Assembly: GCF_025950085.1 (NCBI RefSeq)
Contig: NZ_JAPDDS010000006.1
Location: 186,001-250,000, forward strand
Length of the DNA: 64,000 bases
Source: Luteolibacter flavescens
GTDB taxonomy: Bacteria; Verrucomicrobiota; Verrucomicrobiia; Verrucomicrobiales; Akkermansiaceae
Reading direction: 5' to 3'
Shown: one piece after another, positions 5,446 through 60,098 of the stretch
How the letters are laid out: the number at the start of each line of letters is the position of its first letter
How positions within the stretch are numbered: position 1 is the first letter of the stretch
The notes under the pieces: model-generated
The model's input: only the letters and a program-made list of their open reading frames with translations
What the model was told of the DNA's origin: nothing
Databases searched by the model: none
Position numbers and translations under genes: made by a program

Positions 5446-6267
5446 TCAACGGCGGCGACGCACCAGCCCGCAAAGCACCGCCGCACCGGCGAGCAATGCC
5501 GACGACGGCTCCGGCACGGCATTGAAGCGGAACTCGAACTCACCCGAGTCACCGAAGATGCCCTCCTCGTCCACCAGCTTGAAGCGCGCGACGTAGTCAC
5601 CGGCGCCTGCATTCGCATCCAGCCAGAAGACCGGCGAGAAATTCACGCTCCCACCCAGATGAAGCTCATCGCCCGGATTCGTCAGCCCGATGCTGAAGGC
5701 CGAGTCGCTGCCGATATTCAGCCCCTCGGTCATCGAGACGAGCACGAGGTGGATGTCCGCGCCGCCCAAGCTGCCTGCATAGCGGCCCGCGGAGGAGTTG
5801 AAGAGATAGTTCTCCACCGTGCCCGCAGCGTGGCCGCTTAGCGAGCTGGTGTCGCCGAAGTCGATCAGGCTGAAGTGATTGCCCGGGTCTTCCAGAGCGA
5901 TGGTCACGCCGCTATAGAGTCCGCTGCCGGAGGTGAAGGTGAGCGGCGGATTGCTGCCCTCCGGCAGGTAGTTCGACGGGCTCTGCTCGATCACCGGCGA
6001 GACACCCGTCGTCGGTTGATAGCGGTAGATCCCCTTCGAGTGGTAGTGGCTGCTCGCGGGAGCGGATTCGTTAGGGTGGGCGTAGAGGAAAGTGAGACGG
6101 TTGTAGTTGGGATTCGCCATCCCGGCGAATTCACCGGAAGCGATCGTCTGCATGGTGTCCACGCCGACATAGTAGCTGACCACCGCGGCCTCGGCCGTGG
6201 CCAGGGAGAGGAGCACGCCGATGGCTGCGGTGGCGGGGATGAGACGGGATCGAAGGGTCGCTTTCAT
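5446..6267 (-). CDS. All3515-family PEP-CTERM protein (zinc-limitation type)
   Basis: Start at ATG 6265-6267 gives a signal peptide (MKATLRSRLIPATAAIGVLL). The mature N-terminus AVVSYYVGVDTMQTIASGEF and the following PNYNRLTFLYAH and SSHYHSKG segments match the All3515 family, described in cyanobacteria as Zur-repressed. The C-terminus VPEPSSALLAGAAVLCGLVRRRR is a PEP-CTERM tail. The paired histidines in SSHYHSKG are plausible metal ligands. The gene is divergent from 6436-7044, with a GCAA-N5-TTGC box between them, supporting the same regulation as the receptor. The family call rests on remembered motif similarity. Confidence 0.8.
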   Translation of the reverse strand: MKATLRSRLIPATAAIGVLLSLATAEAAVVSYYVGVDTMQTIASGEFAGMANPNYNRLTFLYAHPNESAPASSHYHSKGIYRYQPTTGVSPVIEQSPSNYLPEGSNPPLTFTSGSGLYSGVTIALEDPGNHFSLIDFGDTSSLSGHAAGTVENYLFNSSAGRYAGSLGGADIHLVLVSMTEGLNIGSDSAFSIGLTNPGDELHLGGSVNFSPVFWLDANAGAGDYVARFKLVDEEGIFGDSGEFEFRFNAVPEPSSALLAGAAVLCGLVRRRR

Positions 6268-6341
6268 GATGATGTGATGGAGTGAGGTGGCGCTCCGCAA
6301 CTCGCGGGGCCGTCAGGCTTTTACGTCTCATGTGTACTGAA

Positions 6342-6356
6342 GCAACAAAATTGCGT
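6342..6356. promoter_or_regulatory. Second candidate Zur-type operator
   Basis: GCAACAAAATTGCGT differs from the box at 2955-2969 at only two positions and keeps the GCAA-N5-TTGC inverted repeat. It lies between two divergent genes (5446-6267 and 6436-7044), so one regulator could control both directions. Confidence 0.5.
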
Positions 6357-6435
6357 TTGTAATTTTATGACGGCGTGATTTTCTGCGGGCGTCCCGACAC
6401 CCCACCGGTTGGCGGTGCTCATCCGATTCACGCCG

Positions 6436-7044
6436 ATGCCCTATTCCCTTGCCACTTCCCGCGGTCCATCCACGCGACCGAGCGCCCGCCTCGGCGGCCT
6501 GTGCAGCGATCTCGCCGCGGGCCTGCGCCAGCAGATGGTCTATTGGGGGCGCGATGTCGTGCATCCGCACGGAAATCTGCTGGCCGCGCAGGGCTTCCGG
6601 AAATCGAAGTCCCCTGGCTTGCAGACGAGCAGTTGCTACGCGCTGGAGTGGGAGGGCGGCCGCATCGAACTGCACGGCGCGTGCGCCGGATGGTTCCCGG
6701 AAGACGGGAGCGCGGGATTTCTCTTCATCCGCCCGCTCGGCAGAAGCCATGTGTGGAAGGGTGGCACCGCCCCCGTGCCGGGCGAGTGGCCTGCCGCGCT
6801 GCTGGACTCCACGGACTTCCCCCGCGTGCTGGATCTCGCGCGGCCCTTCCTGCGCTGGTGGATGGAGTCCGAGGCATGGATCCTCGATCTACTAGGTCCA
6901 TCGTACCGCGACTCCTGCCATCGCCATCTCAAGCGCCTGCCCAAGGGCCAGCCCTGGCTCCACCCGGCCGTCGCCATGGCCTGGGTCGCGCAACTCCACT
7001 CCAGCGGTCACGAAGCCCGCCGTGCCCGGAGATTCACGGCATGA
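6436..7044 (+). CDS. Uncharacterised cytoplasmic protein beside the zinc-type cluster
   Basis: A 202-residue protein starting at ATG 6436; a TTG nine codons upstream is possible. It has no signal peptide or membrane segment. Visible features are a conserved-looking core (QQMVYWGRDVVHPHGNLL, SSCYALEWEGGRIELHGACAGWF) and many Trp, His and Cys residues. I do not recognise the family. Its position opposite the All3515-type gene with a shared candidate operator suggests membership in the same metal-responsive group, perhaps as an intracellular metal-related factor. That is inference from context only. Confidence 0.65.
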   Translation: MPYSLATSRGPSTRPSARLGGLCSDLAAGLRQQMVYWGRDVVHPHGNLLAAQGFRKSKSPGLQTSSCYALEWEGGRIELHGACAGWFPEDGSAGFLFIRPLGRSHVWKGGTAPVPGEWPAALLDSTDFPRVLDLARPFLRWWMESEAWILDLLGPSYRDSCHRHLKRLPKGQPWLHPAVAMAWVAQLHSSGHEARRARRFTA

Positions 7045-7463
7045 AAGCGAGCCGGGACATCCGGCCCACATCTCACATTCGAGGTGTTCGGTGGTGAGAT
7101 GGTGTTTTTGTGAAATTAGCCGACTCCTGGAGGTTGTTGTAAAAAATCTACCTAGGTGTCGGATTCGAGGTTAGACCCGCGTTTTTCTCCAACTCGCGCC
7201 TTGGTGATGAAGCCGGGGCTCTAACTGGAAGCGTCGGAATGCCTTGTCTTTCTGATAGATCCGGGTGGTTTCCGGGAATGAGCCGGAGGAGCGTCCACTC
7301 GGTTTCGCGTCTAGGAATATTACCTACCCGGAATTTCGGAAAGTACCCTACGTAGATTCGTAATTCTTTGACTCTTGATTGCTAAGATCTCCGTGGCAAA
7401 CTTGCCACCTCTCCAGGATGCAACTCTCCCCAGCATTCAGAACACCCCAAAACCCGTCGCCCC
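7045..7463. other. Non-coding stretch without recognised features
   Basis: About 420 bp, visibly richer in A+T than the flanks, between two rightward frames. No convincing coding frame, tRNA or strong hairpin was seen. It probably holds the promoter of the small frame at 7464. Confidence 0.4.
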
Positions 7464-7796
7464 GTGCCAGCTGAAAAACTCATTCTGGCAGGGCGGCCTG
7501 CCGACGCGTGGAAGATGTTAGAAGACCTCCCCGCGCGCCTGAAATTCACTCCGCGTATCCTGCGGCAGAGGCTGTCCTGCGCGCTCGCGCTGGGATGGCA
7601 CCGCCGCGCGTGCATCCTCGAGGAGACGCTTTCTAAAAATATCGACCGCGACGCCATCTTGGATGCCGCACCGGATCAGCAGTGGGAAAGCCGCGCCCTG
7701 ACCCCGGTCATGAGCGCTCCAGCCAAGCAGCGGAGGAAGGAGTCGTGTGCCACCGACCCGCTTGTCGGGCCGATCCACAATTTTCTGCTCTGGTAA
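7464..7796 (+). CDS. Small TPR-like protein, possibly partial
   Basis: A 110-residue frame from GTG 7464; the true start is uncertain. The first part, DAWKMLEDLPARLKFTPRILRQRLSCALALG, is clearly related to EAWDFIEDLPPSMRTTFPIMRVRLRCALAME of the gene at 42634-43002. Both belong to a small helical repeat family common in Verrucomicrobiota, with the pattern EAW..LE.LP......vl..Rl. The remaining C-terminal half does not follow the family and may reflect decay. Function is unknown; family members are assumed to be protein-interaction scaffolds. Confidence 0.5.
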   Translation: MPAEKLILAGRPADAWKMLEDLPARLKFTPRILRQRLSCALALGWHRRACILEETLSKNIDRDAILDAAPDQQWESRALTPVMSAPAKQRRKESCATDPLVGPIHNFLLW

Positions 7797-10395: not shown

Positions 10396-12696
10396 TTACT
10401 TGCCCATCGCGCGGACGGTGCAGTGGATGTCGCCCTGGAGGACTTCGCCATCGGCGTCCTCGAGGTCCCATGCCACCTTCAGCGACATCGAGGGCTTGTG
10501 GCCTTCGAGGTCGATTTCAACGGTCTTGCCATCCTTCAGCAGGCGAGCGGCGGTGACCTTCACGGTGTCACGCTTGTGGTGCTCCTTGGACTCCTTCTGG
10601 AGGGCCACTTCGCGGGCCGGCTTGTCGACATTGTCCACCGAGAACTCGCCGGAGCCGTATTGCGGGCCGCGGACGTAGTCCCAGCGCTGGGCCGAGTAGC
10701 TTTCCGGGTCGGTGGCGAGTTCTTCGTCCAGCTCGGTTTCGAAGTGGATGCGCACGCCCTTTTCGGTGATCTCGAGCTTGTCCGGGATGGTGACGGTCGC
10801 GCCGGTGTAGCGGACGCGCTGCACGGCGCACTCGGCGGCGGCATTCGTCTGCCAGCCGCGGAAGCCGGCCACGTAGAGCGAGCCGTCCTTGTGGAAGCGG
10901 GCGCGCATGGCGGAGGAGCCGAGCTTGGCCGGGATCTTCACCACGCCGCCTTGCAGCGTGTCACCCACGTCGGAGAAGAGCACGCGGTAGAGCGTGGACT
11001 GGCCGTAGGAAAGGTGGATCATCTCGCCTTCCTTCAGGCCGAATTTCACGCCCTTCGGCACCCAGACCTGGGAGCCGCCGGAGTTGTCCACGTCCATAGG
11101 CAGGTAGCAGAGCGGCTCGGTGTACTTGGCATCCTTCAGGCCCTGGCGGCTCGGCTCGGTGCCGAAGAAGAGCGGACGCTGGTCCTTCTTCATGTAGTTG
11201 ATCTTGCAGCAGGGCTGCCAGGATCCCTCGTTCTCACCGGTGGTGATCTCGCCATTCGGGCCGACACCCACGCCGCCCGGGGCGCGCAGGCCGGTCGCGA
11301 CCACCTCGAAGCTCGAGGCGTCCTTCGACAGGCGCATCACGGTGCCGTGGTGCGGGAAGATGGTGTCGAAGCCACGGCCGCCGGGGCGGACCGGTGCGGC
11401 CTTCGAGAAGTAGAAGTCGCCGTTCGAGTCGGTCTGGAGGTCGAAGGCGAACTCGTGGAAGTTCGGCGAAACGGCCACGCCATTGAAGAAGCACTCGAAG
11501 CGGTCGGCCTCGCCGTCCTTGTTCAGGTCGGACAGCTTCGTGATCTGGTCACGGCCGTGGACGAAGATGGCACCGTCGACGACCTTCACGCCGAGCGGCT
11601 CGAAGAGACCGGCGGCGTAGCGCTTCCACGCCAGCTTGCTCCAGTCGCCCTTCAGGCCCTTCACGACCCACACGTCGCCATTCCAGGTGGAGAGCGCGGC
11701 GCTGTCCTCGTCGATGAAGTCGAAGCCGCCGAAGCGGATGTTGGCCTTCCACGGATTGTCTTCCGGGAGGGTGAGGGTGTCGGTGACCCACGGCGACTTC
11801 TTGTCGGTGGAGACCTGGCCCTTGGTGGTGATGACGTCCTTCCAGAGGCCTTCGCCGCCCTTGGTGGCGCCGGTCACGTTGAAGGGGGCGACGGACTTGG
11901 CTGCACCGCCGCGTGCGTAGGAGATGGTGAAGGTGGTCGCCTTGTCGGAAGGAGCGAGCGTCGCGACGAGGCGGGAGGCCTTGTCGGCGGCGGGGGCGAG
12001 CACGGCACCGGTGCCGCCGGTGGCGACGGACAGGCCGGAAGCGGACTTCGCGCCGCCCTTTTCGGCGGTGAAGGCACCGCTGTCATCCGCGGCGATCAGC
12101 GAGAGCGGCTTGTCGTGCGCGGCCACTTCGAAGTGACGGACGAAGCCATCCGGGCCGGACTGGAGGTGCTCCAGCACGTGGGTGCCATTCACCGTGTATT
12201 CGAAGACGATACGGCTGCCGTGGCGGTAGAAGCCCTTGTACTGGGCGTGCGGGATGTTTCCGCAGGCGGCGGTCACCTGGCTGGCGTCGCGCTTCGCGGT
12301 GTAGAGCGTGAAGGACATGCTCGTGCGCTTGTCCTCGAAGCTGCCGGTTTCATTCGCCCAGCCCGGTCCGGGCACGGTGTTGAAAAGGAAGTCCTTCTCG
12401 TTCGCGGTCTTCACGAGCTGGCCGTGGGCACCGGTCCATGGCGTGCCGCCCCAGTGGACGCCGCCCTTGTAAACGGTGACGACGCGCAGGGTCTCGGTGT
12501 CGAAGAGGGCGCGATTTCCATCGCCCAGATCCACGAGAACGCCCTTCACGGCAGCGACTTGCTCCTGGCCGTCGAAGGTTCCGGCGAAGGAATTGGCCCA
12601 TGCCGGGCCGAGTTGCATTTCCTCATACCAGTTGGCGGCCTGTGAAGGCATGGCAGCGGCGGCGAGGACTATTGGTGCGAGGTGATACGGGCGCAT
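10396..12696 (-). CDS. Exported DUF6797-type beta-propeller protein
   Basis: A 766-residue protein starting at ATG 12694-12696 with a signal peptide (MRPYHLAPIVLAAAAMPSQA). The N-terminal part contains GVHWGGTPWTGAHGQL, typical of DUF6797. Residues about 300-620 form a six-bladed propeller with sugar-dehydrogenase-like motifs (GGRGFDTIFPHHGTVMRL, GLRAPGGVGVGPNGE). A beta-rich C-terminal domain follows. Related PVC proteins are thought to be periplasmic oxidoreductases or carbohydrate-binding factors. It is followed by a five-haem cytochrome that could accept its electrons. The substrate cannot be told from the sequence. Confidence 0.82.
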   Translation of the reverse strand: MRPYHLAPIVLAAAAMPSQAANWYEEMQLGPAWANSFAGTFDGQEQVAAVKGVLVDLGDGNRALFDTETLRVVTVYKGGVHWGGTPWTGAHGQLVKTANEKDFLFNTVPGPGWANETGSFEDKRTSMSFTLYTAKRDASQVTAACGNIPHAQYKGFYRHGSRIVFEYTVNGTHVLEHLQSGPDGFVRHFEVAAHDKPLSLIAADDSGAFTAEKGGAKSASGLSVATGGTGAVLAPAADKASRLVATLAPSDKATTFTISYARGGAAKSVAPFNVTGATKGGEGLWKDVITTKGQVSTDKKSPWVTDTLTLPEDNPWKANIRFGGFDFIDEDSAALSTWNGDVWVVKGLKGDWSKLAWKRYAAGLFEPLGVKVVDGAIFVHGRDQITKLSDLNKDGEADRFECFFNGVAVSPNFHEFAFDLQTDSNGDFYFSKAAPVRPGGRGFDTIFPHHGTVMRLSKDASSFEVVATGLRAPGGVGVGPNGEITTGENEGSWQPCCKINYMKKDQRPLFFGTEPSRQGLKDAKYTEPLCYLPMDVDNSGGSQVWVPKGVKFGLKEGEMIHLSYGQSTLYRVLFSDVGDTLQGGVVKIPAKLGSSAMRARFHKDGSLYVAGFRGWQTNAAAECAVQRVRYTGATVTIPDKLEITEKGVRIHFETELDEELATDPESYSAQRWDYVRGPQYGSGEFSVDNVDKPAREVALQKESKEHHKRDTVKVTAARLLKDGKTVEIDLEGHKPSMSLKVAWDLEDADGEVLQGDIHCTVRAMGK

Positions 12697-18705: not shown

Positions 18706-19103
18706 CCGCCGCTCTCCGGGCGGTCACGGTCCTGCTTGCAGGGTCGAGGAAAGTCCGGACACCGCAGGGCAACGCGCCTCTTGAAAAAGGGGGACGGACG
18801 CGTCAAGGCGTCCGGACGGAAAGTGCAGCAGAGAGCATACCGCCGATGGCCCGCAAGGGCACAGGTAAGGGTGAAAGGGTGGGGTAAGAGCCCACCGCGT
18901 GTCCGGGCAACCGGCACGGCACGGCAAACCCCGCGTGGTGCAAGACAGAACAGGGGAAGGGTGCCCGCCCGTCGTATCCCCGGGTATTAGTCGCATCCCG
19001 CGCAAGCGGGAAGATCCTTGTTATCAGGGATTTAGAGAAATGATCGTCAATCTGGACATAGGGTCCAGAAAACAGAATCCGGCTTACAGGAGAGCGGCCC
19101 GCC
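18706..19103 (+). ncRNA. rnpB: RNase P RNA (hybrid host/phage gene)
   Basis: The RNA subunit of RNase P, which removes tRNA 5' leaders. Seen directly: GAGGAAAGUCCGGAC at 18746-18760 (conserved 5' P4 strand), AGAGAAAUGAUCGUC near 19034, ACAGAAUCCGGCUUA near 19072 (conserved 3' P4 strand), and a P1 stem pairing GCCGCTCTCC (18708-18717) with GGAGAGCGGC (19089-19098). Length of about 395 nt suits bacterial type A RNA. Positions 18883-19011 are identical to 59883-60011, and everything after 19011 differs from the displaced host tail. The gene is therefore a host 5' half joined to a phage-supplied 3' part. A T5 run at 19104-19108 follows the P1 strand and may terminate transcription. Confidence 0.93.
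18883..19011 (+). repeat. attL core repeat within rnpB
   Basis: A 129-bp segment identical to 59883-60011. It covers the middle to 3' part of RNase P RNA, and the strand exchange must have taken place somewhere inside it. On its left, the 5' half of rnpB is host DNA. On its right, the rest of the gene is phage DNA. Confidence 0.93.
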
Positions 19104-19182: not shown

Positions 19183-19201
19183 GGTGTAATGGGGTGTAAA
19201 T
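19183..19201 (+). promoter_or_regulatory. Candidate integrase arm-type sites, left end
   Basis: GGTGTAAT at 19183-19190 and GGTGTAAAT at 19193-19201 lie just before the integrase start, in a stretch full of TGGGG repeats. The same GGTGTAAAT occurs twice just inside the right end (59819-59827 and 59830-59838). Short direct repeats on both arms of an attachment site are typical of arm-type integrase binding sites; the assignment is inference. Confidence 0.5.
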
Positions 19202-19208
19202 TGGCCAA

Positions 19209-20441
19209 GTGGAGACGGTGACTTTTGGTACGGCAATTGTCCGGATTTACGGCCGGAGTAACGGCAAGTGGGAGGTGAAATGGCGAGAGGCAGGGCGCGG
19301 TCGCAGCACCACGAAGACGAACAAGGAGGAGGCGCTAGCAGTAGCTAAAGCCCAAGCGAGGAAGCTCGATGGCGCGTCCGGGAAGCAGTGGGTCACTGCC
19401 GGCGAAGCTGATCTTCTCAAGAAGGTGAAAGCGCTCGCAGGGGAACGCTCCCCGTTCATGTGGCTCGACAAGGTGGAAGAGGCAATCAACGCCTCGGGCG
19501 GACTCAGCGAACTTCATGAAGCAGCCAATTCTTATGCGCTGGCGAGAGCTAAAGAATTTGTCAGCCGTAGCTTTGCCGACCTGTATGACCGCTTGGAGGA
19601 CGAGTATCGATCTCACCGGCGAAGCGAAACTTGGAAAACGATTCGAACTGAACTCAAACCATTCAGAGACGAAATCGGATCTCTGCTCGTCGAAAGCATC
19701 AGCCCGGAAAATGTTGCCGAATGGTGCGGGCGGGGAAACCCATCTCCCAGGACATACAACAACCGGCGCTCGATTTGGGGCACTGCCCTTGGACGAGCGC
19801 GTGATCTCGGATGGATCAATCTTCACGCCCGCACCGCAGCTGAGATCTCGCCCAAGCGCCGTGAGGCGAAGAAATCACCAACTGTCTGGTCTCCCCAAAA
19901 TGGGCGTCAAATTCTCGCGCTGCTACGCGAGAAGCATCCTGATCTGGTCGCATATTTCGCCCTTCAATGTTGGGGTGGACTGCGGCCTTCCGAGGCACAG
20001 GACATCGAGTGGCGCGACATTGGCGAACCGAGTGGCTACATCCACGTGAGGCATGAAGTGGCCGGCAAATTAAGCGCAGAGCGGTTCGCTCCGATTCAGT
20101 CGAACCTGAAGGCGATTCTCGAATCCCTACCCGACATCGAGAATCGTCATTCCGAAGGTAGATCAGTCTATCATCGCCGCCGAGATATTGCGCGCTTGGC
20201 CACTTTTCCAGCTCCCTTGAACGCTGCGACAAGACTGGCTGAGGCTGTAATCGCTTCTGGAGTGGTGAACAAATGGCCAAACGACGTGTGTCGCCATTCC
20301 TTCTGCACCTACCGCCTCGCATCCACAAAAGCCATCGGGGCCGTTGCCGAGGAGGCGGGAAACAGTGAAGCAGTGATCCGAAACAACTACCGCAAGCCGG
20401 TGCCAAAGGAAATGGGCGAGGAATGGTTTGAGATCCTATGA
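19209..20441 (+). CDS. int: Tyrosine recombinase (phage integrase)
   Basis: A 410-residue protein from GTG 19209. The catalytic domain shows GLRPSEAQDIEW (first Arg), CRHSFCTYRL (His-x-x-Arg box, around residue 365) and the tyrosine in NNYRKPV near residue 395. An N-terminal beta region (GKWEVKWREAGRGRSTTKT) fits an arm-binding domain, followed by a SAM-like core-binding domain. It catalyses integration into rnpB and, with a directionality factor, excision. It sits about 105 bp from the end of the hybrid rnpB and is convergent with the RHH gene, whose stop codon abuts its own. Confidence 0.93.
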   Translation: METVTFGTAIVRIYGRSNGKWEVKWREAGRGRSTTKTNKEEALAVAKAQARKLDGASGKQWVTAGEADLLKKVKALAGERSPFMWLDKVEEAINASGGLSELHEAANSYALARAKEFVSRSFADLYDRLEDEYRSHRRSETWKTIRTELKPFRDEIGSLLVESISPENVAEWCGRGNPSPRTYNNRRSIWGTALGRARDLGWINLHARTAAEISPKRREAKKSPTVWSPQNGRQILALLREKHPDLVAYFALQCWGGLRPSEAQDIEWRDIGEPSGYIHVRHEVAGKLSAERFAPIQSNLKAILESLPDIENRHSEGRSVYHRRRDIARLATFPAPLNAATRLAEAVIASGVVNKWPNDVCRHSFCTYRLASTKAIGAVAEEAGNSEAVIRNNYRKPVPKEMGEEWFEIL

Positions 20442-43536: not shown

Positions 43537-45660
43537 ATGGGAAACACCTTTGCCCCGGTGGGTGCCGCGCTGCCGGCGCGGCGTGATGCGTTGCGGATCG
43601 AGGCTGCCGATGGCGGATCAATCCCGCGGTTCGATGGTGGCGGCGAGTCGATCATCGCTCCGAAGGCGCAGGACCGGCTGCTGGAACTGATCGAGCGGGA
43701 GCAGCTTCCGGCGGACGTGCGGCACACGCTGGCGGGGGCCTTGCAGGGCGATCTCTTCCGGCAGCAGCTCCTTTTCCAGGCGATGATCGACACCTGGCCG
43801 CGCCTCCAGAAGGCGCTGGCCGAGATCAAGCGGGCGGCGCGCAAGGCTCCATGGCAGGTGAAGGCATGGGCGAACCGCGGAGAGAAGCCGACGGCGGGGG
43901 CGGAGGCGCTGGCGAAGGAGGTGGAGTCGGCCGTCTGGTCGATGCGCCCCGATCCGGTCCGCGGGCTCAAGGGATTCGAAGGCATGGTTGAGGAACTGGC
44001 GATGGGCTACTTCCTCGGGCACCAGGTGATGGAGGTTCATTGGGCACGCGACGGCTCCACCTGGCGGCCCGCCTCGGCGAAGGTTTCCCCGCCGCGGTTC
44101 TACGGGTATTCCCAGACGTGGGACGGGGAGGACCGGCTGATGCTGGACCGGACGGGCGGCATGGGGGCGCTGCAACTCGAGGATTTCCCCGAGCATCGGT
44201 TCCTCATCGCGGTGAATGGCGGGCACTCCGGGCATGCGGCGGTCTCGGCCCCGCTCCGGGCGCTCGCGACCTACTGGCTGGCCGCGGTCTATGGACTGAA
44301 GTGGCTGATCCAGTTTGCCCAGCTCTGCGGCGTGCCGTTCCGCTGGGCCGAGTATGCCGGCGAGCCGGACCGGGTGAAGGTCACGCAGATGCTGGAAAAG
44401 ATCGGCTCCGCGGGGTGGGGGGCATTTCCCGCGGGCACCAAGCTCAACTTCGTGGAGTCGCGCCGGTCTGCCGAGCAGCTACCGACGAAGGTGCTGATCG
44501 ACCTGGCCGACGAGCAGTGCGACATCTTCATCCTCGGCCAGACGCTCACCAGCTCCGCCGGGGACAAGGGCAGCCAGGCGCTCGGGACGGTGCACGAGAC
44601 GGTGCGCCAGGACGTGATCGAAGGTGTGTGCGACTTCGTCGGCGAGGTGCTCACCCACCAGCTCGTGCCGTCGCTCGTCACGCTCAACCACGGAGCGGCC
44701 CGCGGGGACATGCCGGGCATCTGGGCGGTCTTCGAGAAGGCGAAGGACGAGAAGGCCAAGGCGGAGCGGATGGAAGCGCTCAAGCGGCTGGGCCTGCCGG
44801 TGGAACGGCAATGGGCCTACGATGACCTCGGCGTGCCGATGCCGGCACCCGGCGCGGAACTGCTTTTCGAGGAGGCTGCCGCGGGATCGGACGGTGTGAA
44901 AGGTGATCCTGCCAAGGGGCCGATTCCACCGGAGGATGACAAGGAGCGGCTGGAAGCGCGGGATGGCTGGGAAGCCTTTGCGGCGGACAGCGGCACGCTC
45001 GGGATTCCCCGGGCCGAAATGCCGCAGATCCGGGCGGGCGACCGCGCGGCCATGGTGCAGTTCCTGCGCGCGCGTGGGATCACGTCCGCGGAGGAGACCG
45101 TCGATCCCGCCGCGCTCATGGCCACGCAAGCGGAATACTCGCCCGCGAAGGTGGCGGCGGCGAGGGGATACCGCGGCGGCAGCCGGGCGATCCTGATTTC
45201 GCAGGACGATCACGTGGTGGACGGGCATCACCAGTGGCTCGCGGCACTGGAGAAGGGCGAGCCGATCCGGGTGATTCGCCTGATGGCTCCCGTGACGCGC
45301 ATCCTGATGATGGTCCATCGAATGCCGAGCACCCGGGTGGAAGCCTCGTTGCGGGAGGACCTGGACGATGGTCGCCCGAAGATGCTGACCGTGGACCGGC
45401 TCTCATCCGCCGTGCTCGAAGGGCTGACCGGGGTGACCGCCGATTGGCTCGGTCCGGTGCGCCCTTTCTTCGACCGGCTGGCCGCGCTGGCGATGGCGAA
45501 GCAAGTGACCGACGACGACTTTTTGGCGGCCCTAGAAAAAGCGGGACGCGAGCTGCCGGAACTCTTCGACGTGCTCGACAAGCAGGCCCTGCAGGAGGCC
45601 TTCGACGATGCGATCGGAAGCGCGATGCTGGCGGGGAGCACGAGCCGCTACGAACGATGA
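43537..45660 (+). CDS. Portal protein (DUF935, Mu gp29-like) with ParB-like segment
   Basis: 707 residues from ATG 43537. Residues about 35-430 match DUF935 portals: FRQQLLFQAMIDTWPRLQKA, YFLGHQVMEVHWARDG, LIQFAQLCGVPFRWAEY and CDIFILGQTLTSSAGDKGSQ. About residues 525-595 (EYSPAKVAAARGYRGGSRAI, LISQDDHVVDGHHQWLAAL) look like a ParB/Srx-type insertion. A helical C-terminus (ALEKAGRELPELFDVLDKQA) closes it. The portal forms the ring through which DNA enters the head. Its length exceeds usual DUF935 portals because of the extra part. Confidence 0.85.
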   Translation: MGNTFAPVGAALPARRDALRIEAADGGSIPRFDGGGESIIAPKAQDRLLELIEREQLPADVRHTLAGALQGDLFRQQLLFQAMIDTWPRLQKALAEIKRAARKAPWQVKAWANRGEKPTAGAEALAKEVESAVWSMRPDPVRGLKGFEGMVEELAMGYFLGHQVMEVHWARDGSTWRPASAKVSPPRFYGYSQTWDGEDRLMLDRTGGMGALQLEDFPEHRFLIAVNGGHSGHAAVSAPLRALATYWLAAVYGLKWLIQFAQLCGVPFRWAEYAGEPDRVKVTQMLEKIGSAGWGAFPAGTKLNFVESRRSAEQLPTKVLIDLADEQCDIFILGQTLTSSAGDKGSQALGTVHETVRQDVIEGVCDFVGEVLTHQLVPSLVTLNHGAARGDMPGIWAVFEKAKDEKAKAERMEALKRLGLPVERQWAYDDLGVPMPAPGAELLFEEAAAGSDGVKGDPAKGPIPPEDDKERLEARDGWEAFAADSGTLGIPRAEMPQIRAGDRAAMVQFLRARGITSAEETVDPAALMATQAEYSPAKVAAARGYRGGSRAILISQDDHVVDGHHQWLAALEKGEPIRVIRLMAPVTRILMMVHRMPSTRVEASLREDLDDGRPKMLTVDRLSSAVLEGLTGVTADWLGPVRPFFDRLAALAMAKQVTDDDFLAALEKAGRELPELFDVLDKQALQEAFDDAIGSAMLAGSTSRYER

Positions 45661-47916: not shown

Positions 47917-48975
47917 ATGTCCATCCTCATCATCGCTGCACTGGCGAACTCGCTCGATACGGTCGCGCCGGAAGAGATCGTCTACCTGCCCGAAGGCGAG
48001 CACGAGATCACTCCCTTCGTCGACGGGAAGCCGAAGAAGGTGACCGTGCGCGTGCCGGCGTCGAAGGGCGCGGAGATCGCCGCCTCGCTGCAGTCGGCGC
48101 TTTCCGTGCGCGAAAGGTCGAACGTGCGGCCTTGGTTCGACTTCGAGCACAAGGCCGGGGTGGCGAGTGCCCTGCCGAAGTCCTTCCGGTATGAGCCGGG
48201 CAGGGGAGTGGTGGCGGCCGTCGAGTGGACGGGCGCGGGCAAGGCGGCCATCGAGGGCAAGGACTTCTCCTACTTCTCGCCGACTTTCCTGATGAGCAAG
48301 GACGGCATCCCCGACGGATTGCCGCTGCGGGGACCACTGGGGGCTCTCGTGAACGAGCCCGCCTTCCGGGAGATTCCGCGTATTGCCGCATCGGATGCGG
48401 TTGATCCAACCGAAGAAACCAACGCCATGTCACAGCTCCTCATCCTCGCGTCGTGCGGCCTGCTAACCCAGGCGGAAGCCGCGCTCCCCAATGCCGCGGA
48501 ACTCGCCAGCCAGCGGGTGGCCGCGATGAACGGCCAGTCCGACAAGCTCAAGGAGATCGAAGCCAAGATCTCCGGACTCGAAAAGGAACGCGACGACGCC
48601 AAGGCGGAGGTCGAGCGGATGAAGACCGAAGCTTCCGATGCCCGCAAGTTGCGCGCCAAGGCACTGGTGGAAGCCGCCCAAGCGGACGGCCGCATCGCCG
48701 CGAAGGACGAGGCGACGGCCGGCAAATACCGCTCGCGGATCGAGGCGGGCGACACCTTCGCCGAGGAAGTCCTCGCCGGGCTCCAGAAGCTCCACACGGA
48801 CCTCAACAAGCCGATCATCCAGGCCGGTGCCACCGTTCGCACGCCGGGGACGGTCGATGCCAAGGCGCAGGCACTCATCGCCGCCGGGGAAGCGAAGGAC
48901 ATCGACGAGGCGCGCGGCCTGGTCTTCGCCAGCGATGCCAGCGCCTACAGCGAATATCTCGCGAGCCTGAAGTGA
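47917..48975 (+). CDS. Head maturation protease/scaffold (Mu gpI-like)
   Basis: 352 residues from ATG 47917. The first half has VRPWFDFEHKAGVASALPKS and GKDFSYFSPTFL, typical of Mu I-type proteases. The second half is a helical, charged scaffold (KLKEIEAKISGLEKERDDAK). An in-frame ATG at 48427 (MSQLLILASC) could start a separate scaffold product, as in Mu. It should process and assemble the capsid encoded two genes later. Confidence 0.82.
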   Translation: MSILIIAALANSLDTVAPEEIVYLPEGEHEITPFVDGKPKKVTVRVPASKGAEIAASLQSALSVRERSNVRPWFDFEHKAGVASALPKSFRYEPGRGVVAAVEWTGAGKAAIEGKDFSYFSPTFLMSKDGIPDGLPLRGPLGALVNEPAFREIPRIAASDAVDPTEETNAMSQLLILASCGLLTQAEAALPNAAELASQRVAAMNGQSDKLKEIEAKISGLEKERDDAKAEVERMKTEASDARKLRAKALVEAAQADGRIAAKDEATAGKYRSRIEAGDTFAEEVLAGLQKLHTDLNKPIIQAGATVRTPGTVDAKAQALIAAGEAKDIDEARGLVFASDASAYSEYLASLK

Positions 48976-49451: not shown

Positions 49452-50375
49452 GTGAAAACGCCACTTCTCAATCCCGTCCTCACCGGCCTCGCCTCGCGCT
49501 TCATCGCGACCCAGCCGACCGTGGGACTGCGCATCGCCCCGGTGCTCAATTCCCAGATCCACGCCGCGCAGTACTACGTGTATGACCCGGCGAACCACTA
49601 CAACGTCCCTACGAACATCCAGCGTGCGCCCAGTTCCCCCTTCAAGCGGCTGAAGTCCTCGTTGTCCTCGGACACCTTCCTCTGCAAGGACTACGGCGTG
49701 GAGGAGCCCATCGACAAGATGCAGCTCCAGATGTTCTCAAGCATCTTCGCCGCGGACCGCTCCGGGATGGACCGGGCGGTGAACGTCGTGCTGCTCAACC
49801 ACGAGATCCGAGTGCGCGACATGGCGCGCGGCGTGACTCAGACCTCCACCCCGGCGGTGAAGTGGAATGCCCAGGCCAACACCACCATCGTGGGCGACAT
49901 CGAAATGGCGAAGGCGGTGATCCGAGCGCAGATCGGCGTGATCCCGAACATGCTGACGCTGCCCTACGACGTCTTCGTCGCGCTTCGCCAGGCACCGGAG
50001 TTGCGCGCCTACTACCAGAACACCGACGGGCTCGTGACCATCGAGCAGATGAAGGTGCTCTTCGGCGTGGAGGAGATCGTGGTCTCCGGCGCGATCATCA
50101 ACGGCGCGAACGAAGGCCAGGCCGCCTCGCTGGCGGACATCTGGACCGACGAGGCCTTCCTCTCCTACTCGAAGCCGAGCCCGGACGTGAAGGCGCTGAA
50201 CTTCGCCCGGACCTTCAACTGGACCGCCGCCGACGGCAGCGGCCCGGCGGGAGTCTCGACCTTCACCTACGACGAGAACGAGATCGACTCGCGCGTGGTC
50301 CGCGCCCGGCAGTTCACCGATGAAAAGGTGATCGCCGCCGGTGCCGGGTATTACTTCTCCAACGTCCTCAACTGA
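49452..50375 (+). CDS. Major capsid protein (Mu-like)
   Basis: 307 residues from GTG 49452. PVLTGLASRFIATQPTVGLR and IAPVLNSQIHAAQYYVY form the N-terminal part, and PNMLTLPYDVFVALRQAPEL with IEQMKVLFGVEEIVVSGAII are typical of capsid proteins of the Mu gpT/E-type fold. The C-terminal EIDSRVVRARQFTDEKVI segment completes the shell domain. Directly after the decoration gene. Confidence 0.83.
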   Translation: MKTPLLNPVLTGLASRFIATQPTVGLRIAPVLNSQIHAAQYYVYDPANHYNVPTNIQRAPSSPFKRLKSSLSSDTFLCKDYGVEEPIDKMQLQMFSSIFAADRSGMDRAVNVVLLNHEIRVRDMARGVTQTSTPAVKWNAQANTTIVGDIEMAKAVIRAQIGVIPNMLTLPYDVFVALRQAPELRAYYQNTDGLVTIEQMKVLFGVEEIVVSGAIINGANEGQAASLADIWTDEAFLSYSKPSPDVKALNFARTFNWTAADGSGPAGVSTFTYDENEIDSRVVRARQFTDEKVIAAGAGYYFSNVLN

Positions 50376-54229: not shown

Positions 54230-54642
54230 TCAGCGCCGCGTGCAAGATCGAGTTCGTCCCCGCCGGGCAACCGGCCATCGTGCTGGTGGACGTGGACGGA
54301 TGGCTTGAGGCGCTGCCGCGCTTCGTCGCGAGACAGAATCTCTACGAGCCCGATGGCATCGCCCTGGCTGATGGCTTCATCAAGCCGCTGGGCGGCGTGC
54401 AGGTGGACATCAGCTTTACGACCATCACCGAGCCCGCGACCGCGAGCGACATGTGGGCCGCCTTCTTGGACTGCCTGCCCCCGGTGCTGACCGGGGCGCT
54501 CGTCATCACGGGCGGCGGCAAGGTCACGACCTTCGCACCTGCGGTGATGACCACCACGACGCCCGCGCTGCCCGGGCCGGATGCGACGGTGATCAAGCGA
54601 TACCAGATCCAAGCGCCGCTCCCCGTGACGGAGGGTACCTAA
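54226..54642 (+). CDS. Small tail protein before the tape measure
   Basis: 138 residues from ATG 54226, overlapping the previous stop. FVPAGQPAIVLVDVDGWLEA and DISFTTITEPATASDMWAAF look beta-rich. Position suggests a tail assembly protein. No frameshift-type G/GT chaperone pair was recognised. Confidence 0.55.
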   Translation: MISAACKIEFVPAGQPAIVLVDVDGWLEALPRFVARQNLYEPDGIALADGFIKPLGGVQVDISFTTITEPATASDMWAAFLDCLPPVLTGALVITGGGKVTTFAPAVMTTTTPALPGPDATVIKRYQIQAPLPVTEGT

Positions 54643-54656
54643 ACAGAAGCAAAGCC

Positions 54657-56573
54657 ATGGCAGAGAAGAGGGAGTTCACGTTTCACATCAAAACGCTCGG
54701 TGACCCGAGCGGCGCGAAGGATGTCGAACAGGCCATCGACAGTGTAGTCGATGCTGCCGAGGCGCTCGACTCGGGCGCAGGCGGTGGTGCGATCGTGCTG
54801 GATCGCAACCTCGACAACACGACCGACGCCGCCAACCATGCCGCTACCGCCATCGTGAAAGTAGGCGACGCCGCGGACTCCTTGGGCACCAGCACGAGCG
54901 GGAAAACGCTTACTTTTGAACGGAATCTCAGGAGAACGGGCGACGCTGCGACCGACACCGAGAAGAGGATCGCGGAGCTTGAGCGCACGGTGAAACAGCT
55001 CAACGCGGAACTGGCGAGAAGCGCCTCCAACTCTGCAAACCAAGCCGCCGGTTTCAGGAGGGTCGGCGAAAGTAGCGACCGCCTTGGCGAGTCATTCCGG
55101 CGGCAGCGGGTCGCTGGCGAGGCTGCCACAAAATCCACCGGCGCGCTGGGTCAGAAGGTTACGCAGGCCGGTTATCAGATGCAGGACTTCGCCGTGCAGG
55201 TCGGCGGCGGCACATCGGCACTAACAGCACTGGCACAGCAGGGCTCCCAGTTCCTAGGGGTCTTCGGCCCGAAGGGTGCGATTGCGGGCGCTGCATTGGC
55301 GATTGGAGTCGTCGTTGCTCAATTGATCCGGGCATCCAAGGGAACCAAAAATGCGAAGGAAGATGCCGACGATTGGGTGGAGTCCCTAAAGTCGGTTCAG
55401 AAGATCTTCCAAGACATGGAGACTGTCGGGCTTGAGGAGCAGTCGCGAAAGCTGGAGGAAAGCGCACGAAGGTATGCAGACGAGATTGCGAGCATCAACG
55501 CAGCCGACCGGCGGGCCATCGGTGCAGAAGGTGTGGCGGCTCGGAGAATTGAAGGAGAGAGGCTGGTCGCCTTGGCAAACAATCGGCTCGAGATCGCGCG
55601 AACTGAGTCGGCTCTCTTGAGGGCCACTGCCGAGGAGGCCACTCGACTCGCGGAACGTCGGAAACGATTGGCCGAGGAAACTGCCGAGATCGAACTAGCA
55701 ATTCTCGAGCGGCGTCGTGAATTGGATCTGCAGCGGGCGCGGCGAAGTTTGGTCGCGGCTGAGCGTAACGACAGCTCAGCGAAGGACTTCGAGGCGAGGG
55801 CGCGGGCCACATACAATAAGGTGGCAGCGGAGCGGGAGGAATTGTTTCGTCTAGCCCAGGAAGCCGCACAGGCCCGCTTCGCTGCAATTGCCGAGCTCCG
55901 CAACGAGATCAAGGCTATGATCCAGGAGATCGAGGCTATCGAGTCTGAGCCTTTCGTTTCAGCCGCAGTGGCCGCTCGCCGTTCCTCGAGGAAAGACGAT
56001 TTAAGGAAGCAGATCGAACTGAATGAGGTCGGCATTGGATACGCGCTTTCGCCAGGGTCTGAGGAGCGGGATGCAAAAGCAAAGGGCGACGCGCTCGTCC
56101 CTAAATTGTCAAACGCGGCGGATGCGTTGAAGGCTGCGAGCGAGGAACAACGGAAAACTTCCGCGTCCGTTGCCGATGCTATGCAGGCCCTCAAGGATCT
56201 TCGTGATTCTCAGTCGGTGGATCGCGACAGTGAACGCCAAGTCCGTGAGGCTGAGAAGCAGATCGAGGCGGAGAAAGGTCCGGACACGAGCAAGGGTGTG
56301 GAGGCACTAAGCGCGCTGACCAAGCAGCTCGATGGCATCCCCGAGCTGGCCGGGGTCACCGAGAAGATCAATTCCTTCATCGCGGACAAGACGCTGACGG
56401 GCGAGGAGCTGGTGAAGTCGCAGGTGCTGATCAGCCAATACTTCGCGAAGATTGCGAATCTTGGTGCCACCCAGAATGCCGCGATCCGCGAGGCGCGGGA
56501 CAGGGTGGATGACCTGGAGCGCGAAGTCCGCACGCTGCGGGCCAACCAACGGAACACCGTCCCCGCGAACTGA
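54657..56573 (+). CDS. Tail tape measure protein
   Basis: 638 residues from ATG 54657. Long helical, charged sequence with repeated coiled-coil segments (RRYADEIASINAADRRAIGA; EEATRLAERRKRLAEETAEI), an internal hydrophobic stretch (GAIAGAALAIGVVVAQLI, about 205-222) and MQDFAVQVGGGTSALTALAQ QGSQFLGVFGPKG, typical of tape measure proteins. Its length sets the tail length. Presence without sheath genes shows a siphovirus-type tail. Confidence 0.87.
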   Translation: MAEKREFTFHIKTLGDPSGAKDVEQAIDSVVDAAEALDSGAGGGAIVLDRNLDNTTDAANHAATAIVKVGDAADSLGTSTSGKTLTFERNLRRTGDAATDTEKRIAELERTVKQLNAELARSASNSANQAAGFRRVGESSDRLGESFRRQRVAGEAATKSTGALGQKVTQAGYQMQDFAVQVGGGTSALTALAQQGSQFLGVFGPKGAIAGAALAIGVVVAQLIRASKGTKNAKEDADDWVESLKSVQKIFQDMETVGLEEQSRKLEESARRYADEIASINAADRRAIGAEGVAARRIEGERLVALANNRLEIARTESALLRATAEEATRLAERRKRLAEETAEIELAILERRRELDLQRARRSLVAAERNDSSAKDFEARARATYNKVAAEREELFRLAQEAAQARFAAIAELRNEIKAMIQEIEAIESEPFVSAAVAARRSSRKDDLRKQIELNEVGIGYALSPGSEERDAKAKGDALVPKLSNAADALKAASEEQRKTSASVADAMQALKDLRDSQSVDRDSERQVREAEKQIEAEKGPDTSKGVEALSALTKQLDGIPELAGVTEKINSFIADKTLTGEELVKSQVLISQYFAKIANLGATQNAAIREARDRVDDLEREVRTLRANQRNTVPAN

Positions 56574-59818: not shown

Positions 59819-59838
59819 GGTGTAAATGCGGTGTAAAT
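59819..59838 (+). promoter_or_regulatory. Candidate integrase arm-type sites, right end
   Basis: GGTGTAAAT occurs at 59819-59827 and again at 59830-59838, spaced 11 bp. The same 9-mer lies at 19193-19201 before the integrase gene. In the circular phage form both arms flank attP. Assignment as arm sites is inference. Confidence 0.5.
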
Positions 59839-59882: not shown

Positions 59883-60011
59883 GGTAAGAGCCCACCGCGT
59901 GTCCGGGCAACCGGCACGGCACGGCAAACCCCGCGTGGTGCAAGACAGAACAGGGGAAGGGTGCCCGCCCGTCGTATCCCCGGGTATTAGTCGCATCCCG
60001 CGCAAGCGGGA
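59883..60011 (+). repeat. attR core repeat
   Basis: Perfect 129-bp copy of 18883-19011. The phage lies on its left and the displaced host rnpB 3' end on its right. Confidence 0.93.
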
Positions 60012-60098
60012 GTCCGCTCCGGCGGACAGAGAAATGATCGTCACCCCCGGACACAGGGTCCGGGGACCACAGAATCCGGCTTACAGGAGAGCGGCCCG
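59883..60098 (+). pseudogene. rnpB: Displaced 3' half of the original host rnpB
   Basis: This segment carries the conserved 3' P4 strand ACAGAATCCGGCTTA and the P1 3' strand GGAGAGCGGC (60086-60095), but no 5' half. The hairpin at 60012-60027 (GTCCGC-TCCG-GCGGAC) and that at 60045-60065 (CCCCGGAC-ACAGG-GTCCGGGG) differ in sequence from those of the phage-derived tail at 19012-19033 and 19051-19069, but fold alike. On excision it would rejoin the 5' half. It is non-functional as it stands. Confidence 0.9.

Follow-up and report, generated by a model that had tools for sequence, protein, structure and literature searches.

The RNase P RNA gene rnpB was found to be split by a 41.0-kb tyrosine-integrase prophage in the 64-kb window (the whole stretch of DNA that was analysed, from Luteolibacter flavescens), with a left and a right copy of the gene at the two ends of the element. 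The left copy (18708-19102, + strand) is a full-length RNase P RNA gene, matching positions 1-367 of the RF00010 model with 210.9 bits against a cut-off of 100, and the right copy (59883-60097) is a 5'-truncated orphan that holds the 3' part. The two share a perfect repeat of 129 bp (18883-19011 and 59883-60011, both + strand, exactly 41,000 bp apart), and their last ~30 bp are also identical. The layout is that of gene-restoring integration, with an intact target at one end, a displaced fragment at the other and the element between them, and the tyrosine integrase (19209-20441, + strand; phrog_1 7.7e-25; PF00589 1.4e-5, just under the curated cut-off) adjoins the restored gene. A temperate phage very probably uses rnpB as its attachment site, the gene being restored with the phage 3' part and the host's own being displaced. 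RNase P RNA is an essential ribozyme of tRNA maturation, and the cell most likely depends on a version of it that is part host and part phage, as far as can be read from the sequence.

Both rnpB copies lie on one contig of 370 kb. A genome-wide RF00010 search found matches at two places only, both at the ends of the element, with the left copy as the sole full-length gene found; the assembly (71 contigs, 97.5% complete) leaves room for an unseen second rnpB. The same search found no separate full rnpB inside the element, and a tRNA/tmRNA search of the window found none. A single rnpA match per genome was obtained in 18/18 genomes of the genus. Gene calls were made by PHROG and Pfam matches on 20 chosen ORFs rather than on all ORFs, and gave a tailed-phage gene set on the + strand, comprising, besides the integrase, a portal protein (43537-45660; phrog_113 4.6e-62), a head maturation protease (47917-48975; phrog_328 7.6e-24), a major head protein (49452-50375; phrog_1005 3.3e-52) and tail genes, with a tape measure protein (54453-56573; phrog_1538 9.2e-10). 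No terminase was named among these 20 ORFs.

In the proposed mechanism, the phage site would carry the last ~217 nt of an rnpB gene, and the tyrosine integrase would recombine this site with the host rnpB, with the 7-nt L13 loop or its vicinity as the likeliest crossover point. In the lysogen, the host 5' half (18708-18882, + strand; within the RF00010 match and outside the repeat) would be joined to the phage 3' half, and the host 3' half would be moved 41 kb away; excision may reverse this. The phage tail would have to work, since the cell cannot do without RNase P RNA and the search found no other full-length copy. Selection would then have kept the conserved strands and all the helices of the phage tail, while P20 and P19 drifted and stayed paired on both sides.

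Both repeats start at the L13 loop, where a 7-nt GTAAGAG lies between 6-bp arms (GGTGGG/CCCACC); the left repeat, the core side of attL, runs from this loop to the end of the P18 hairpin, and the right repeat is the core side of attR. At tRNA genes, integrases cross over in a loop flanked by inverted arms, such as the anticodon loop, and the L13 arrangement in the repeats of the window and of a second genome (Haloferula luteola, G016) is like an anticodon loop. The crossover could also lie elsewhere within the 129-bp repeat. In the left copy of G016 the base at offset 84 departs from the other rows of the genus, the right copy having the usual base, and if the left copy there is the phage's, the crossover lay to the left of offset 84. 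The 129-bp identity between phage and host is longer than the integrase should need, and counts against the proposed mechanism.

Short repeats beside the two ends are probably the arm-type sites of the integrase, to judge from their placement. The motif GGTGTAAW occurs 6 times in the 64-kb window against 0.64 expected, and 4 of the 6 form two pairs within ~330 bp of the repeats (19183 and 19193; 59819 and 59830), the left pair being two GGTGTAA repeats (19183-19200, + strand) and the right pair two GGTGTAAA repeats (59819-59837, + strand). In G016, GGTGTAAAW forms a pair next to the right repeat and has a single copy near the left one (5/200 shuffles also had such a copy), and none was found in the 20 kb searched between the repeats. 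The right-hand pair stands 45-46 bp from the repeat in both the window and G016.

Among weaker relatives of the integrase, an RNA gene was found beside the integrase at 3/6 loci, namely tRNA-Gly (L102), tmRNA (L103) and tRNA-Pro (L055); at L104, L105 and L054, the last two being the same place, no tRNA or tmRNA was found in the stretch covered. The rnpB integrases look like a branch of RNA-gene integrases with a changed target. A single-protein search of viral contigs with the integrase found nothing, and a two-row alignment found only the Haloferula prophage itself; against phage records, blastn with the rnpB tail found nothing and tblastn with the integrase gave two matches with identities of no more than 26%. 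One viral contig was matched by the major head protein and two by a tail protein. The tail model gave no match on the parts of these three contigs that were covered (4.9/17.3, 17.4/26.6 and 13.6/36.5 kb), and a short-motif scan of the same parts gave one lone match in each of two. No free phage genome with this attP was found in the viral contigs and phage records searched, and it is from the two element ends that attP would appear to carry an rnpB 3' fragment.

The helix names P18, P20, P19 and P4 and the loop name L13 were assigned by position. In a table of PMC2858038, P13, P18, P19 and P20 are given as present in bacterial type A RNase P RNA. The P18 hairpin (18996-19011, GCAA loop) is the same in both copies; it is followed in the left copy by phage-type hairpins P20 (19012-19033, 9 bp) and P19 (19051-19069, 7 bp), and in the right copy by the presumably native, displaced P20 (60012-60027, 6 bp) and P19 (60045-60065, 8 bp), all on the + strand. 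The positions of the last four hairpins in the sequence-only reading proved exact, with pairing of 9/9, 7/7, 6/6 and 8/8. Letter shuffling of the same segment gave such a hairpin with a probability of 0.002 and 0.004 for phage P20 and P19, and 0.022 and 0.001 for host P20 and P19. With dinucleotide shuffles, the P18+P20 stretch had z values of -5.2 (phage) and -3.9 (host), and the P19 stretch of -3.7 and -2.1, respectively.

That reading had also held that both hairpins change on both strands at once while the stretches between them stay identical, and this was confirmed: 6 double-sided pair changes were counted over P20 and P19, and the P20-P19 spacer and the gene end do not differ between the two alleles of the window, with the perfect 129-bp repeat preceding them. 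Counted from the loop, P20 has 4 pairs with double-sided change, 1 with one-sided change and 1 unchanged (6 comparable), and P19 has 2 pairs with double-sided change and 5 unchanged. The difference in P20 length (9 vs 6 bp) amounts to wholesale replacement, and the pair count depends on the loop-anchored alignment. The 5' arm of the phage P19 pairs 7/7 with the 3' arm of the host P19 if G-U is allowed. Over 36 aligned tails, 20 of 33 consensus pairs were changed on both sides and 96.2% of cells were paired (0/500 shuffles equal), the consensus structure being derived from the same alignment, which favours the covariation score. The P18+P20 hairpins are absent from 6/36 tails, and the hairpins that differ here are hypervariable across the family. 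Compensatory change is the usual mode of these helices across the family and is not special to the phage/host pair; it shows that both tails have passed through selection as RNA. The earlier claim that such change marks the phage tail as a selected part of a working ribozyme held up as regards the hybrid and the equal model scores, but the special status given to it was lost to the family-wide covariation. Single-sequence folding is no general test here, because ViennaRNA missed the expected P18+P20 hairpins in G007 and the expected P19 hairpin in G009, both relatives from the genus.

Covariance scoring had been set beforehand as a test of the hybrid, which did not score poorly (210.9 bits against the cut-off of 100), and the two tails scored alike, with 153.7 bits for the phage tail and 153.6 bits for the host tail of the window under R2, a tail covariance model made from the tails of 32 relatives with the four test tails excluded. 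With the Rfam model on the 3' parts alone, the phage tail had 78.3 bits and the displaced tail 67.8, the latter match ending before the gene end. For Haloferula luteola, R2 gave 144.8 bits for the displaced tail and 131.2 for the phage tail, which fits less well there. The set of relatives' rnpB comprised 45 sequences (29 from search loci and 16 by place), a partial one from G006 being unused. Anchor patterns failed for 7, of which L036 and L042 were added by hand-set coordinates and L006, L012, L016, L028 and L031 were omitted; 38 passed the anchors, and L004, L014, L019, L021, L022, L023 and L025 were not put into alignment A2, which consists of 32 relatives and the four test tails. L012 and L016 are possibly in the wrong orientation in the rnpB identity alignment.

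Helices P1, P2 and P4 span the junction, each with its 5' strand from the host and its 3' strand from the phage. The 3' strands of P4 and P1 in the phage tail (19072-19099, + strand) must pair with host 5' strands, and their counterparts in the displaced host 3' end lie at 60069-60097 (+ strand). In P1, CTCTCC stands with GGAGAG in the window and CTCCCC with GGGGAG in G016; each phage evidently carries the version of the P1 3' strand that fits its own host.

The second case is that of Haloferula luteola YC6886 (G016, NZ_JACHFD010000006.1; Verrucomicrobiales, the same genus as the window's genome), where an element of 39,608 bp, listed as a virus in IMG/VR, occupies the same place, the L13 loop, in rnpB. 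This second prophage is diverged, with an integrase 59% identical to that of the window; its structural genes are in the same order, and 54% of the window element is covered by tblastx matches, of which many short ones are weak. Its repeat starts at the same GGTAAGAG as that of the window and has one mismatch in the first 114 bases. Between its phage and displaced tails, 2 pairs of P18 and 4 of P20 are changed on both sides, and the P19 pairs are unchanged.

In a survey of 260 genomes of the family with tail model R1 and stricter filters, a tail was found in 233 and two tails in 6. A split rnpB was found in 2/260, the window's genome (G000) and G016, which were also the only ones among the same 260 with strong integrase matches (863 and 851 bits; next 223 bits). 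The other four genomes with two tails were rejected: in G163, two different rnpB copies lie on separate contigs and extend past the tail, and in G180, G205 and G249 the tail pieces are at contig ends. Contigs break inside the rnpB tail in these three genomes (L112/L118 in G205, L115/L120 in G180 and L117/L121 in G249), a pattern that would be expected if the sample holds two continuations. A further genome, G092, was taken for a local duplication, with two tail copies 10 kb apart and no integrase recognised among ORFs judged by eye. Repeats of the rnpB 3' end in G092 (L092) lie at 1224-1649, about 9800 and 11836-11967, and the third tail copy was detected only via its translation in an ORF.

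The native tail, now displaced, is most likely that of the right copy, because the nearest relatives, G009 and G007, have tails of the right type; the left gene would then consist of the host 5' half and the phage 3' part. For a host gene that lies ~6 kb upstream of rnpB, identity was 90% with G009 and 86% with G007, and did not exceed 80% in any other genome of the genus with a match. In blastn of the 16S rRNA region, the three alignments longer than 3 kb gave 94.6% for G009, 94.2% for G007 and 92.3% for G015; the remaining ones, of 1.5-2.2 kb, gave 90.4 to 93.7% and are not comparable with those. Tail identity to the right and the left copy was 0.82 vs 0.63 for G009 and 0.84 vs 0.69 for G007. 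The host tail has 14 differences to G009, 15 to G007 and 22 to G012, and G007 is the nearest neighbour of the right copy in the tail tree. The view of the left gene as a host/phage hybrid was thus borne out, this gene being the only full-length rnpB found and the genome having one rnpA match.

An origin of the phage tail in another host lineage, as had been proposed, is possible and was weakly supported. The tail tree places the left copy together with G012 and the two tails of G016, at a fork with support 77/98 that the program marks as weak, but the preceding 129 bp are identical to the host. Phage and host tails of the window have 23/93 differences, which is within, and near the top of, the range (1/92 to 25/92) for those species of the genus that have no more than 3 base differences in the core; between-species differences include 25 for G009/G012, 1 for G004/G011 and 5 for G003/G015. 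The resident rnpB tail of G012 (L044) resembles the phage tail of the window (79% over 94 columns), and no similarity to either prophage was found in the 4.5 kb downstream of the G012 rnpB.

Two readings of the history of the phage tail were considered, each of them rather unlikely. The phage group may carry its own evolving RNase P 3' domains, G012 and the displaced tail of G016 now holding resident alleles of phage type; if true, lysogeny is an allele swap of an essential ribozyme, and phages have reshaped the ribozyme of their hosts. Alternatively, and with about the same low probability, the phage tail would be a recent pick-up from a host of this lineage with recombined hairpins, without long selection on the phage copy, a history compatible with rnpB as attachment site. 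It would account for the identity of 129/129 bases before the hairpins and for the unchanged P19 pairs of G016, but P20 in both phages and P18 in G016 have been replaced and are still fully or nearly paired, which needs passage through a functional RNA.

If the crossover fell within the conserved 3'-terminal block of rnpB, the left gene would be wholly host-made and the right partial copy phage cargo. This is improbable, although the last ~30 bp are identical in both copies, the core in actinobacterial phages appears to be just that 3' end, and the left tail has its nearest neighbour in G012, another species of the genus. G009 and G007, the nearest relatives, have tails that match the right copy, the early mismatch in G016 departs from the genus rows in the left copy and not in the right, and a promoterless phage fragment should not keep perfect compensated hairpins together with 129 bp of identity to the host. 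Even less credible is a second tail made by assembly error, contamination or simple duplication. The genome is a draft of 71 contigs, and contigs break inside the rnpB tail in three other genomes of the family; however, both copies are on one 370-kb contig with phage genes and an integrase between them, and the same layout with a different phage, listed as a virus in IMG/VR, is found in the genome of a named strain (Haloferula luteola).

Phage integration into RNA genes is well known for tRNA and tmRNA. No report of rnpB as a phage attachment site was found in the open-access literature searched, subscription papers being mostly outside the search. In Islander elements, as described in PMC4383910, a target tRNA or tmRNA gene is regenerated by an element-borne fragment, the displaced fragment lies at the other end, and the integrases are tyrosine integrases. 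The rnpB prophage is alike in restoring its target, displacing a fragment and having a tyrosine integrase. It differs from those elements in its target, the RNase P ribozyme gene, which lies outside their tRNA/tmRNA definition, in the replacement of up to 217 nt (about 55%), and in phage and host versions that differ in sequence in helical parts. In the tRNA-dependent lysogeny of mycobacteriophages, according to PMC10865867, the target is not rebuilt, the core is short (~10 bp) and the phage carries a separate tRNA gene. An essential RNA gene is targeted in both systems, and survival of the lysogen depends on RNA sequence supplied by the phage; here, in contrast, the target is rebuilt, RF00010 matches occur only at the element ends with no separate full rnpB found in the element, and no tRNA was found. 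The left gene fits RNase P RNA class A (RF00010), matching the whole model above the gathering score, and departs from the norm of that class in being composed of host and phage parts, with P20 and P19 that differ from the native allele. The case is one of gene-restoring integration in which RNase P RNA is an unusual target and the replacement is unusually long, diverged in sequence and kept in structure. By exchanging about half of the RNase P RNA, such a phage makes natural chimeric ribozymes from two species, with which to explore how far this RNA tolerates exchange, which of its helices are important and whether phages are able to tune an essential ribozyme of their hosts. rnpB also joins the list of places in which to look for prophages.

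A second phage lineage seems to target rnpB as well, in this case at the extreme 3' end. A common 3' motif of RNase P RNA matched 92 stretches in viral contigs; among the 80/92 that were checked, 2 (L142 and L199) had an integrase-like ORF within the span viewed, as recognised by a crude tyrosine recombinase motif. L142 has a nuclease gene, a complete rnpB, an integrase that lies 64 bp beyond the first base of the 3' motif and then a terminase (rnpB-integrase region at 7360-7790 and 6152-7342), and L087, from a separate viral-contig scan, has an rnpB tail, an integrase and a head protein (1-1468). Among 12 loci with relatives of the L142 integrase, which include L142 and L087 themselves and of which 2 end within 60 bp of the integrase, 4 have rnpB 3'-end sequence beside the integrase (L142, L087, L257 and L258). 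The 3'-end match was 24/26 in L257 (near 7131) and 21/26 in L258 (near 2271), the best in 30 shuffles being 19 and 18, respectively. In both, only the ~24-nt 3' end of rnpB stands beside the integrase, like an attP core, and no rnpB was found further upstream in the ~420 bases viewed. These four phages look actinobacterial on a reading of their sequences.

The two phage-collection matches to an actinobacterial rnpB tail, the phage-labelled faecal scaffolds L217 and L216 (MT836823.1 and MT835553.1) with RNase P RNA, were dropped, as they look by eye like pieces of bacterial chromosome. Likewise, 15 matched records of a plasmid collection were taken for chromosome-like replicons from their size and name. 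The viral contigs L083 (9376-9703), L086 (1687-2014) and L084 (2968-3382) have large tRNA arrays with a full RNase P RNA among their genes (264-266 bits). The viral contig L088, of 191 kb, has a tRNA array and a short RNase P RNA of 207 nt (10596-10802; 118.5 bits), which probably lacks much of the middle of the molecule.
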